The position numbers and the translations under genes are program-made. Under the pieces are notes generated by a model. It was not told where the DNA came from. It did no database searches and saw nothing but the letters and a program-made list of their open reading frames with translations. Of a DNA stretch of 62,187 nt, positions 57,004 to 60,334 are shown piece by piece. Each line of letters starts with the position of its first letter. Positions within the stretch are counted from its first letter, which is position 1. Location: positions 1 to 62,187 of the forward strand of contig JADBLN010000091.1 of NCBI GenBank assembly GCA_014894455.1, written 5' to 3'. Source of the stretch: Acidobacteriota bacterium (GTDB taxonomy: Bacteria > Acidobacteriota > Aminicenantia > Aminicenantales > Saccharicenantaceae).

Positions 57004-57040
57004 ATAAAGAGGGGAACGCGAGTTCCCCTCTTTATTTTTG
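57004..57040 (+). terminator. rho-independent terminator after malic enzyme
   Basis: Perfect 14-base stem (57004-57017 with 57022-57035), GCGA loop, then TTTTTG. Confidence 0.9.
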
Positions 57041-57048
57041 TCCGCGGG

Positions 57049-57078
57049 TTGACAAGAGGTTCGCGGTTATGGTATAAA
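57049..57078 (+). promoter_or_regulatory. promoter of the lipoprotein/YkuD operon
   Basis: TTGACA at 57049-57054, 18-base spacer, TATAAA at 57073-57078. A leader of about 175 bases follows before the first gene. Confidence 0.65.
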
Positions 57079-57259
57079 TCCTAATAAGTCAGGCATATTT
57101 CTTACCTGGCCGGATGAAGAGTGTGACATATCCATGGACGAGAAGAGCGAAAGCTCGTTTTTAGACTTTCCCCATCCCCCCCTAGACGACTCAATACAAC
57201 CCCCAAATAAGGCGCCTATATCACGGAATTCATAAAAAATACCACAAGGAGGTAACAAG
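57079..57259 (+). other. long 5' leader of the lipoprotein operon
   Basis: About 175 untranslated bases. It contains a small GNRA-type hairpin (GAGC-GAAA-GCTC, 57145-57156) followed by TTTTT at 57158-57162, and a 33-codon open frame (57134-57235) without a ribosome site. The real gene start has AAGGAGG. I cannot assign a known leader family. Confidence 0.4.
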
Positions 57260-57853
57260 ATGAAAAACATCGTGAAAGGCTTAACTCTGGCGCTCGTCGT
57301 CGTGTTCGTATTCACGAGCTGCGCCAAGGCACCCGCCCAGCTGATGGATTCGGCCAAGGCCGCCATCCAGGGTGTGGTCGACGCCAAGGGCGGCGTCTAC
57401 GCGAAGGACGAGCTGAACAAGCTCAACGGCGACCTCCAGGCCGCCATGGACGAGGTCACGGCCCAGTCCAAGAAATTCTTCAAGAAATTCGGCCCGGCCA
57501 AGGAAATGCTGACCAAGCTCATCGCCGACGCCGACGCCGTCAAGGCCCTGATCCCCGGGCGGATCGCGGAAGCCAAGAGCGCCGCCGAAATAGCGGTGAA
57601 CGAAGCCAAGGCGACCTGGGAAGAGGCCAAGGCCCTTCTCGAGAAGGCCCCCAAGGGCAAGGGCACCAAGGCCGACATCGAGGCCATGAAGGCCGACCTC
57701 GCCGGTCTCGAGACCGCGATGGCCGACGTCCAGTCCGCCATGGCCGCCGAGGACTACTTCGGCGCCAAGGACAAGGCCATGGTCATTAAGGACAAGGCCG
57801 CCGCGATCGTCGAACAGATCAACGCCGCCATCGCCAAGGTCAAAGGCAGGTGA
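57260..57853 (+). CDS. helical lipoprotein, unknown function
   Basis: A 197-residue lipoprotein (lipobox VFTSC, cysteine about residue 21). The mature part is almost wholly helical and rich in Ala, Lys, Glu and Asp with heptad-like spacing (AIQGVVDAKGGVYAKDELNK, AEAKSAAEIAVNEAKATWEE). The C-terminus is AAIAKVKGR, with lysines near the end. It recalls long helical envelope lipoproteins, but I do not recognise a family. It overlaps the next gene, a YkuD lipoprotein, by four bases (GTGA). A strong ribosome site suggests high expression. Confidence 0.75.
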   Translation: MKNIVKGLTLALVVVFVFTSCAKAPAQLMDSAKAAIQGVVDAKGGVYAKDELNKLNGDLQAAMDEVTAQSKKFFKKFGPAKEMLTKLIADADAVKALIPGRIAEAKSAAEIAVNEAKATWEEAKALLEKAPKGKGTKADIEAMKADLAGLETAMADVQSAMAAEDYFGAKDKAMVIKDKAAAIVEQINAAIAKVKGR

Positions 57854-58938
57854 TCTTTCGCAAGACAGCCGTCTTCGTCCTGGCTGTTTTGCTTTTCGGT
57901 TGCCGAACCGCGCCGGTCCCTTCGGAGGTTCTTGAAGCCGATCTTCAGGAAAAGGACCTCTGGAGGGCCGGTGCTTCTCTTTTCGCCGGCCAGGACCACG
58001 CGGCTTATCTCCAATCCCTGAAGTCCGCCCGGCGAATTCTCGATGCGGAGAACCTCAAACTGGGCTGGTTCCGGGATTACGGCCGGGTCCGGCGGGATTT
58101 CGAGGCCGCATTGAGCGTGGGTAAAGCCCTGAAGTCAAAGGTCCGGTCCCTCGTCGCCATGAAGACCTCGTCCATTGCGGAGACGGCGGCCGCGGTCCGC
58201 AGAAGGCTCCGGACGCTCGACGGCCTGACCCTGTCCCTGGTCGAACGGGGCGAGGCCAGGAAGCAGTTGGCCCAGGCTTCGATCCTGCTCTCGGAGGCCG
58301 ATGGCCTGACGAAGCAGGCCAAATTCGATGAGGCCGCCGCGAAGCTCGATTCCGCCTCCTCTCTGGCCGCGGAGGCAGAACAGAGTGTCGTTTCGTATAT
58401 CGCCCGTTACCTCGACCCGGCCCAGGTCCGTGCCTGGAAGAACGCGGCGGACGAGACCATCGCCGACTCCAGGAAACGGGGCGTGACGGCCCTCATCGTC
58501 AGCAAGCTCGAACGGCGCCTCTCCGTTTACAAGAACGGGGAGATCGTCAGGACTTACGATGTCGGCCTCGGCTTCAACGGCCTGGCCGACAAGCGCCATG
58601 CCGGGGACAACGCGACGCCCGAGGGCCGCTACACGATCGTCCGGAAAATCCCCGCCAGCCAGTACTACAAGGCCCTGCTCATCAACTACCCCAACGATGA
58701 AGACAGGAAGTGGTTCGCCCGGGAAAAGGCGAAGGGCAACATCCCCCGGTGGGTGGGCATCGGCGGCGACGTCGAAATCCACGGCGGGGGCGAGGATACC
58801 CTGACCCGCGGATGTGTTTCGCTCGACAACGACAAGATGGACGAGCTCTATGCCCTGGTTTCGATCGGAACACCGATCACGATCATCGGAACCATGGAAC
58901 TCGAAAACTACGTCATCAAAGCCATCAGGGACAATTGA
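57850..58938 (+). CDS. YkuD-domain L,D-transpeptidase-like lipoprotein
   Basis: 362 residues from a GTG that overlaps the previous stop. Lipobox LLFGC (cysteine about residue 18), a helical N-terminal region (about 40-200), then a C-terminal YkuD domain: VSKLERRLSVYKNGEIVRTY, GDNATPEGRYTIVRK, and the catalytic EIHGGGEDTLTRGCVSLDN with the nucleophile cysteine. The usual S/T-H-G-C is R-G-C here, seen in some YkuD groups. It would act on peptidoglycan from the periplasmic face of the membrane to which it is anchored. Confidence 0.86.
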   Translation: MIFRKTAVFVLAVLLFGCRTAPVPSEVLEADLQEKDLWRAGASLFAGQDHAAYLQSLKSARRILDAENLKLGWFRDYGRVRRDFEAALSVGKALKSKVRSLVAMKTSSIAETAAAVRRRLRTLDGLTLSLVERGEARKQLAQASILLSEADGLTKQAKFDEAAAKLDSASSLAAEAEQSVVSYIARYLDPAQVRAWKNAADETIADSRKRGVTALIVSKLERRLSVYKNGEIVRTYDVGLGFNGLADKRHAGDNATPEGRYTIVRKIPASQYYKALLINYPNDEDRKWFAREKAKGNIPRWVGIGGDVEIHGGGEDTLTRGCVSLDNDKMDELYALVSIGTPITIIGTMELENYVIKAIRDN

Positions 58939-58939
58939 G

Positions 58940-59590
58940 ATGTTTGTGAAGCGCATCCTCATCGCGGCGGCGGCCCTGGCCTACCTGGGTTTCCTGGCCG
59001 TCCTCGGGGCGGCCTATCTCATCGGCCTGAAGCAAGCTTCGGCCTGGCCGCCGGCCGGGGTCGGGCGGGCTATCGGCGACAAGGACCTGCCCAAGGTCGA
59101 GAAAAACGTCCAGCAGCTCGAGAAGAGGATGATCGGGCTGCTGCCGAAGGGTCTGTACATCGTCATCGACACGGCCGAGAACAGGCTTTATGTCAAGAAC
59201 GGCAAGGATGTCGTCCGCACGGCTGTCGTCTCCTGCGGCAGCGGAGTCGTCCTCGAAGAGTCCGGGGGCAAGCAGAGAAAATGGGTCTTCGACACGCCGC
59301 GCGGCGAGTTCATCGTCAAATCGAAGATCACCAATCCCTACTGGGTCAAGCCGGACTGGGCCTTCATCGAGGAAGGGGAATCCATCCCGAAGGGTTTGGA
59401 GGACAGGATCGAAGCGGGGACGCTCGGGGATTACGCCCTGGGTTTCGGGCAGGGCTACTTCATCCACGGCACGCTCTACACGCGCTTGCTCGGAAGGAAC
59501 GTCACCCACGGCTGCGTCCGCGTTGGGGACGAGGACCTCAAGGCCATCTTCAAGGCCGTGCCGATGGGCGCGAAGATCTATATCTATTAA
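58940..59590 (+). CDS. YkuD-domain L,D-transpeptidase
   Basis: 216 residues, one N-terminal membrane or signal helix (AAAALAYLGFLAVLGAAYLI), then a YkuD domain starting YIVIDTAENRLYVKNGKDVV, with DTPRGEFIVKSK and the canonical catalytic FIHGTLYTRLLGRNVTHGCV. All active-site residues (His, His, Cys) are intact. Second YkuD gene of the operon, one base after the first stop. Confidence 0.9.
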   Translation: MFVKRILIAAAALAYLGFLAVLGAAYLIGLKQASAWPPAGVGRAIGDKDLPKVEKNVQQLEKRMIGLLPKGLYIVIDTAENRLYVKNGKDVVRTAVVSCGSGVVLEESGGKQRKWVFDTPRGEFIVKSKITNPYWVKPDWAFIEEGESIPKGLEDRIEAGTLGDYALGFGQGYFIHGTLYTRLLGRNVTHGCVRVGDEDLKAIFKAVPMGAKIYIY

Positions 59591-59594
59591 GCTC

Positions 59595-60284
59595 ATGACA
59601 AAAACAAGGATGCTCGCGGCCCTCCTGATGGCCGGCCTCGTCTGCGCTGGACCGGCGGGGGGGGCGGACAAGACCGACCTGGCCAAGAAGCAGAATTCCC
59701 TCAACGCCGAATATTCTCTGGCCAAGGACTCGACCTTTTATTTCGTCCTGGACATCCTCGGCCGGAAGCTCGAATTGAGGGTACGGGGGATGGTCCTCCG
59801 GACATGGCCGTTCCAGTCCATGCGCTTTTGGGGCCGGCCGGAATTGTCGGGAAACGTCGAACTCGTCCGGAAGTCGACCCTGAAAGCCCCGGAAAGAATC
59901 GTCATCAAGCCCGGGGGAGAAGCCGAAAAAATCGAAGCGGCCCCGATGGCCGCGGCCAAGCCGACCGGGACGAGCGCCGCCCCGAGCAACGCCGCAGAAT
60001 TCGACCTGGAAGCCCTGGAGCTCAAGGACATGCCCAAAAAGTTCAGCCTCGATTTCGATAACGGTCTCCATATTCTGATCAAGGCGAAAACGAGGGCCTC
60101 AGGAGGATTCCTAGGGTCGATGCGGGAAGGCTGGCGCTGGCATATCGGTTTGCCGTTACGGAATCTTTTCGGCCCGCAAACGGGAAAAGGTCTATCGGAG
60201 CTCGAGTTGACCTTCGATAACGACAAGGACGCCCAGGCCATCTACTGGCATTTCTTCGAAGGAATCAAGGGTATCATCCTTTAA
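59595..60284 (+). CDS. exported protein, possible non-catalytic YkuD relative
   Basis: 229 residues with a signal peptide (MLAALLMAGLVCAGPAGGAD). The segment FYFVLDILGRKLELRVRGMV and the next RTWPF match, position by position, the opening strands of the YkuD protein just upstream (YIVIDTAENRLYVKNGKDVV, RTAVV), but no HxxH or HGC catalytic motif follows. The C-terminal part (KFSLDFDNGLHILIKAKTRA, REGWRWHIGLPLRNLF) is not recognised. It lies five bases after the second YkuD gene and ends the operon. The relationship is my inference from pattern. Confidence 0.6.
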   Translation: MTKTRMLAALLMAGLVCAGPAGGADKTDLAKKQNSLNAEYSLAKDSTFYFVLDILGRKLELRVRGMVLRTWPFQSMRFWGRPELSGNVELVRKSTLKAPERIVIKPGGEAEKIEAAPMAAAKPTGTSAAPSNAAEFDLEALELKDMPKKFSLDFDNGLHILIKAKTRASGGFLGSMREGWRWHIGLPLRNLFGPQTGKGLSELELTFDNDKDAQAIYWHFFEGIKGIIL

Positions 60285-60305: not shown

Positions 60306-60334
60306 TTGACAAACATATACTAAGATTATATAAT
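60306..60334 (+). promoter_or_regulatory. dnaK promoter
   Basis: A consensus TTGACA at 60306-60311, 17-base spacer, TATAAT at 60329-60334. No CIRCE-type inverted repeat is seen next to it. Confidence 0.88.

Follow-up and report, generated by a model that had tools for sequence, protein, structure and literature searches.

A four-gene operon conserved across much of the Acidobacteriota combines a helical lipoprotein with two predicted YkuD enzymes and a dead YkuD paralogue

Introduction

What might one promoter followed by four tightly packed genes, for a helical lipoprotein, two YkuD-domain proteins and a further secreted protein, do in the envelope of an acidobacterium? These genes, named g1 to g4 here, occupy positions 57260-60284, downstream of a conserved promoter, in a stretch of 62,187 nucleotides (the window; contig JADBLN010000091.1 of assembly GCA_014894455.1). 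The host genome is a Candidatus Aminicenantes (Acidobacteriota) metagenome-assembled genome (MAG) of 2.95 Mb, 96% complete, and its closest public relatives are also Candidatus Aminicenantes MAGs, with g2 identities of 50-91%. An initial annotation had suggested that the genes may be a lineage-specific system for tethering the outer membrane or modifying the wall. Here we describe a module that extends through the phylum, and we weigh the plausible reading that the enzyme encoded by g3 tethers the g1 lipoprotein covalently to peptidoglycan.

Results

The four-gene order is kept across the phylum

The four open reading frames overlap or nearly abut, as first described: the g1 stop and the g2 start overlap by 4 bp, and gaps of 1 and 4 bp separate g2 from g3 and g3 from g4, respectively. 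For the phylum survey we used 396 Acidobacteriota genomes, with thresholds of E≤1e-20 for g1 and E≤1e-50 for g3. Orthologues of g1 were found in 78 genomes, and the supposed tie between the lipoprotein and a transpeptidase was borne out by their co-occurrence, g1 and g3 being together in 77 genomes as against one with g1 alone and three with g3 alone (Fisher p 2e-77, uncorrected for kinship). Of the 59 pairs checked outside the host's order, 56 had both genes on one contig and strand, typically 1.1-1.6 kb apart. A g4 homologue was located downstream of g3 in all 33 loci examined in detail, including 27 outside the class that come from 20 families; 30 of these 33 homologues were retrieved at the first iteration of a profile built from order members only. 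The presence of g1 and that of g4 match genome by genome, except at contig ends and for one marginal g4 match (E 9.7e-4).

The full run malic enzyme-g1-g2-g3-g4-dnaK was recovered in 32 loci of the host's order (in the others a contig or the locus ends before the run is complete), and the malic enzyme and dnaK neighbours were not seen at the loci examined outside that order. The order g1-g2-g3-g4 itself is phylum-wide in Acidobacteriota. The search for it in related genomes that had been proposed at the outset found the order kept, and the self-contained unit of the initial annotation stands, with the correction that it is not lineage-specific in the narrow sense of being confined to Aminicenantes. 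We are highly confident that the four genes form a single conserved module, in which one enzyme is of the transpeptidase type and the other of the hydrolase type.

Two families depart from this pattern. All four genes are missing from most genomes of family f6, many of which are also devoid of any YkuD protein. In family f30 (four genomes, one genus) g2 has been lost, g1 still adjoins g3, and g4 follows g3 in the single locus examined in full. In one genome the complete operon, together with its two flanking genes, is present twice, as diverged copies (L045, G005:C22, and L006, G005:C40). The operon may have been duplicated there, or the MAG, for which 2% contamination is listed, may be mixed.

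g3 is a predicted L,D-transpeptidase and g2 a predicted hydrolase

Both g2 and g3 are YkuD proteins (PF03734), as had been proposed, scoring 70.8 and 83.5 bits, respectively, against a cut-off of 23.4. The only other YkuD protein found in the host genome, a third one, is encoded outside the operon (L003, G000:C53:1275-1811). In g3, residues H176, G177, T178, H190, G191, C192 and R194 are invariant, and the motif HGTLYTRLLGRNVTHGCVR comprises the catalytic His, (S/T)HGC and an Arg at position C+2, as in transpeptidases. An Arg two residues past the catalytic Cys is a recognized mark of transpeptidases (PMC8263019); it is present in 71 of 71 resolved g3 orthologues, and g3 is a predicted L,D-transpeptidase.

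A full active site had been singled out for g3, which does have one; g2, however, keeps both the catalytic His and Cys (HGGGEDTLTRGC), and g3 is therefore not the only YkuD protein of the operon with an active site. The g2 of the window is indeed a lipoprotein (lipobox LFGC), and in several other families its N-terminus resembles a transmembrane anchor and not a lipobox. A transpeptidase role is not supported for g2, which bears hydrolase marks: its C+2 residue is A in 43, S in 20 and G in 11 of 74 sequences, and Arg in none. The motif K-x3-GD-x2-TPEG, in which the Lys is equivalent to Lys83 of DpaA, occurs in 72 of 74 g2 sequences phylum-wide, and K248 of g2, invariant in 39 order sequences, aligns with the meso-diaminopimelate (meso-DAP)-binding lysine (DpaA Lys83/Csd6 Lys107). 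Lys83 of DpaA is essential to Lpp cleavage (for the C+2 rule and this role, PMC8263019, PMC10653827).

The solved structures nearest to g2 are 8ikr (a DpaA-type YkuD by sequence), 7o21 (Bd1075), 6xj6/6xj7 (Pgp2) and 4xzz (Csd6). We classify g2 as a predicted hydrolase of the DpaA/Csd6 class and not as a DpaA orthologue, since its score against the DpaA equivalog NF040599 is 37.7 bits, far under the curated cut-off of 365, and since it has no counterpart of DpaA Lys130/Tyr131. DpaA-like proteins have been reported from Acidobacteria, their substrate being not known (PMC8263019).

A weak match of g2 to Tlde1_dom (E 0.0015, 19.4 bits against a cut-off of 30.1) would fit a defence, toxin or type VI secretion system effector cassette. 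The same region of g2 scores 70.8 bits with YkuD, and the Tlde1 identity was rejected; the operon is moreover vertically conserved, within the order it is syntenic with the genes for malic enzyme and dnaK, and it showed no cassette signs at the scanned loci, so that we give this explanation almost no credence.

g4 is a dead paralogue of g3

The fourth gene had been described as encoding a secreted protein, which is correct as far as it goes: g4 is also a degenerate protein of the YkuD fold. Its AlphaFold2 model (mean pLDDT 74.6) has a strand-rich core, and all 50 listed Foldseek matches of this model are YkuD-fold proteins, nearly all of them L,D-transpeptidases; the best match has an E-value of 4.7e-4 and a probability of 1.00, but TM-scores are low (about 0.3). 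Profile comparison of g4 with g3 gave an E-value of 8.5e-6 over nearly the full length, with the helix that precedes the domain also aligned, against at least 0.03 for reversed and block-shuffled controls, and together with the Foldseek result this ruled out an unrelated secreted protein. Comparison with the profile of the g2 YkuD domain gave no significant match. No conserved Cys or His column was found among 65 g4 orthologues, and no column holds more than five Cys. Thus, g4 is a YkuD-fold paralogue of g3 that has lost its active site.

g1 is a helical lipoprotein related to the N-terminal domain of g2

The description of g1 as an Ala/Lys-rich helical lipoprotein ending in AAIAKVKGR was upheld. 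It has the lipobox FTSC, 43 Ala and 26 Lys among the 176 residues of its mature part, and lipoprotein status in 72 of 75 orthologues. The modelling that had been suggested for it gave a confident helical bundle with AlphaFold2 (mean pLDDT 89.7, pTM 0.74; helices 26-41, 49-70, 78-129, 137-162 and 166-196, the third of 52 residues), and yielded no significant Foldseek match, the best hit (E 0.39, the N-domain of Borrelia BB0323) being a lead only. A sequence search of the PDB with g1 returned chance coiled coils only. Codon usage, compared among genes of the window with dnaK as the single reference gene, is closer to that of dnaK for g1 (0.685) than for g2 (0.543) or g4 (0.479), a weak hint of higher abundance.

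At the family level, 29 of 70 g1 orthologues match DUF4398 (PF14346) with an E-value of 0.01 or better, and its cut-off is passed by at least one of them (L131, 40.3 against 27.9 bits), while the g1 of the window does not reach the model; we regard g1 as remotely DUF4398-like. More distant g1-like lipoproteins of the DUF4398 type occur with no YkuD neighbours in other acidobacterial families (L150-L156), and are likely part of a wider family of envelope stalk domains.

Profile comparison with signal peptides removed identified the mature part of g1 as a full-length, in-register paralogue of the N-terminal domain of g2 (probability 98.6, E 6e-16). The best of the reversed and heptad-block-shuffled control profiles reached 3e-4, and helical composition bias was therefore rejected as the source of the similarity. 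With the homology of g3 and g4, this makes the operon a set of two pairs, each consisting of an active enzyme and a non-catalytic relative (g2 with g1 and g3 with g4).

Helices 78-129 and 137-162 of g1 are separated by the loop APkGKG, which is missing from the g2 domain. Its Lys134 is the sole lysine invariant in 70 of 70 aligned g1 orthologues. Of 71 g1 C-termini, 34 end in R, 28 in K and nine in another residue. As R is about as frequent as K, the Lpp-type tether by a terminal lysine was ruled out. A search of the host genome with the LPP profile (PF04728, E≤1) gave no match, with the E. coli control matched.

The basic character of this end (K or R as last residue in 62 of 71, on average 3.2 basic residues among the last six) would also suit a passive tether, in which the tail and loops of g1 bind peptidoglycan by charge, the YkuD genes act independently and the operon merely reflects shared regulation of envelope maintenance. 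The DUF4398-like lipoproteins that stand elsewhere in the phylum without YkuD neighbours agree with such a role. Near-perfect co-occurrence and contiguity of g1 and g3 over 20 families, however, exceed what shared regulation usually demands, and we consider this explanation improbable.

In families f79, f84 and f52 (L142, L144, L145, L146 and L149) the g1 tail ends in or beside a Cys (KTKIRC, KTKIKC, KFKCK), and a second Cys (CRR or CGR) stands in the segment preceding the Lys134 loop, which suggests a disulphide between tail and loop in these proteins.

Promoter, leader and flanking signals

The single promoter that had been assigned to the operon scores below the strict threshold of the promoter scanner. 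Its pattern TTGACA...TGnTATAA is nevertheless fixed in 11 of 11 aligned genus members, amid neighbouring DNA that has diverged, and the promoter is therefore probably real. The leader contains a second element, GCCTATNTCAcg..TCATA, about 46 nt 5′ of the g1 start codon, which is conserved within the genus and not beyond it; an Rfam search of the leader gave no match, and the element is possibly a regulatory RNA or a binding site. Downstream of the operon, dnaK is preceded by a perfect consensus sigma-70 promoter (TTGACA-17-TATAAT, 60306-60334) and is therefore probably transcribed separately. Features are collected in Table 1.

Table 1. Position of the operon genes and associated elements in the window.
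Feature	Coordinates	Strand	Description
Intrinsic-terminator-like hairpin	57009..57040 (hairpin 57011-57027)	+	After malic enzyme gene; stem GGGGAAC/GTTCCC, then T-rich tail
Promoter (probable)	57049..57078	+	TTGACA, 18 nt, TATAAA with TG extension; kept in 11 aligned genus members
Leader element	57214..57247	+	GCCTATNTCAcg..TCATA; from 11-relative alignment and motif scan; 5′ of Shine-Dalgarno
g1	57260..57853	+	ATG start; Ala/Lys-rich helical lipoprotein, DUF4398-related, paralogue of g2 N-domain
g1 APKGKGT loop	57647..57667 (Lys134 codon 57659-57661)	+	Invariant Lys134; alignment of 70 orthologues
g2	57850..58938	+	GTG start; lipoprotein, g1-like helical domain (residues ~24-204) and YkuD domain; predicted DpaA/Csd6-class hydrolase
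g2 YkuD catalytic domain	58492..58884 (catalytic Cys322 codon 58813-58815)	+	Pfam match; H311 and C322 invariant
g3	58940..59590	+	Predicted L,D-transpeptidase; YkuD domain behind an N-terminal membrane anchor and a short coil
g3 YkuD catalytic domain	59156..59584 (catalytic Cys192 codon 59513-59515)	+	Pfam match
g4	59595..60284	+	Secreted YkuD-fold paralogue of g3 with no catalytic Cys or His

Discussion

We propose that the operon encodes an envelope module found throughout the Acidobacteriota. The predicted L,D-transpeptidase g3, presumably anchored in the inner membrane, would activate the meso-DAP of peptidoglycan stem peptides and join it to g1, a helical lipoprotein, presumably abundant and of the outer membrane, that would be its dedicated client and most likely acceptor. 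On g1 the bond would be made to the side chain of a lysine, the best candidates being the invariant Lys134 in the loop between helices and the lysines of the basic C-terminal tail. With its g1-like helical domain, g2 may co-localise with g1 and, as antagonist of g3, cleave the bond between g1 and the wall, or else trim stems; g4, the dead paralogue of g3, may occupy or present the same sites and so regulate g3.

Judged from sequence, covalent tethering of g1 by g3 is plausible, and it is the reading we favour, tentatively. It is supported by family f30, where g1 stays with g3 after the loss of g2, by the invariance of Lys134 in a loop that the g2 domain lacks, and by a host genome without Lpp. 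A DAP epimerase is present in that genome, and meso-DAP peptidoglycan is therefore likely. A precedent for tethering through an internal lysine exists in LimB (PMC8263019), which is attached by Lys21 (PMC12729407).

Several observations weigh against this reading. The homology of g1 to the N-domain of the hydrolase points to a role as structural stalk or scaffold and not to one as substrate; g1 has no conserved lysine at its end; three proteins with OmpA domains in the host genome are possible non-covalent tethers; where DpaA has Lys130/Tyr131, GKYLMIHG aligns with GG(L/D)(I/V)EIHG in g2; and the DpaA-type cleft is also present in L,D-carboxypeptidases, so that g2 may merely trim stems.

Alternatively, g1 may be a non-covalent scaffold: co-assembled with the homologous helical domain of g2, it would keep a wall-editing complex of g2, g3 and g4 at the outer membrane, with g3 making 3-3 crosslinks, g2 trimming tetrapeptides as an L,D-carboxypeptidase and g4 regulating. 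This explanation ranks close behind covalent tethering. The full-length, in-register match of g1 to the g2 domain speaks for it, as do the two paralogue pairs, an arrangement typical of heteromeric complexes, the absence of a conserved terminal lysine from g1 and the fact that several of the nearest solved relatives of g2 (Pgp2, Csd6 and Bd1075) are L,D-carboxypeptidases (PMC10653827). The persistence of g1 beside g3 in the four genomes of one genus that lost g2 argues, on the other hand, that g1 is not solely a partner of g2, and the loop with the invariant Lys134 is exactly what the g2 domain lacks.

Returning to covalent tethering by g3, each of the proposed chemistries has a known counterpart, in Lpp, LdtA-C, DpaA, Csd6/Pgp2 and LimB. 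The closest parallel is the Lpp cycle of E. coli, in which LdtA, LdtB and LdtC attach Lpp and DpaA (YafK) detaches it: there, as here, a YkuD transpeptidase of the Arg type and a hydrolase of the DpaA class are found with a helical, Ala/Lys-rich lipoprotein. The E. coli genes are not known to form one operon, and that cycle is not known to include a dead YkuD partner, whereas the acidobacterial operon has g4. Lpp itself is about 58 amino acids long, ends in a lysine and is not known to be related to DpaA. It thus differs from g1, which has about 176 amino acids in its mature form, a final R or K and a paralogous relationship to the N-domain of the hydrolase. The L,D-carboxypeptidases Csd6, Pgp2 and Bd1075 are, like g2, YkuD hydrolases with no Arg at C+2; unlike them, g2 has a lipobox, a g1-like helical domain and an adjacent transpeptidase gene, and Trp158, specific to Csd6, is not kept in the g2 alignment.

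Like the proposed g1, the lipoprotein LimB of Coxiella is attached to meso-DAP by an internal lysine through a bond of the L,D-transpeptidase type (PMC12729407). The L,D-transpeptidase responsible for LimB is not known, whereas that proposed for g1 is adjacent and co-inherited, and the likeness considered here is one of mechanism.

The assembly as a whole (one operon, phylum-wide, with an enzyme and its dead paralogue and a substrate-like lipoprotein sharing a domain with the hydrolase) was not found in the open-licence literature that was searched, which is weak evidence of absence. That the operon is an undescribed, phylum-wide covalent tether of the outer membrane, in which g1 is held on meso-DAP by an internal invariant lysine and is encoded with its ligase, a releasing hydrolase bearing the fold of the substrate and, as regulator, a paralogue of the ligase that is catalytically dead, is a possibility that we hold with more doubt than either covalent attachment as such or the scaffold.

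In the open-licence literature searched, covalent tethers between membrane and wall are known only from Proteobacteria. In a large phylum that has hardly been studied, the operon brings together candidates for a substrate, its ligase, the enzyme that releases it and a regulator. The question of what DpaA-like enzymes target where Lpp is absent becomes directly testable, with Lys134 of g1 as the residue to test.

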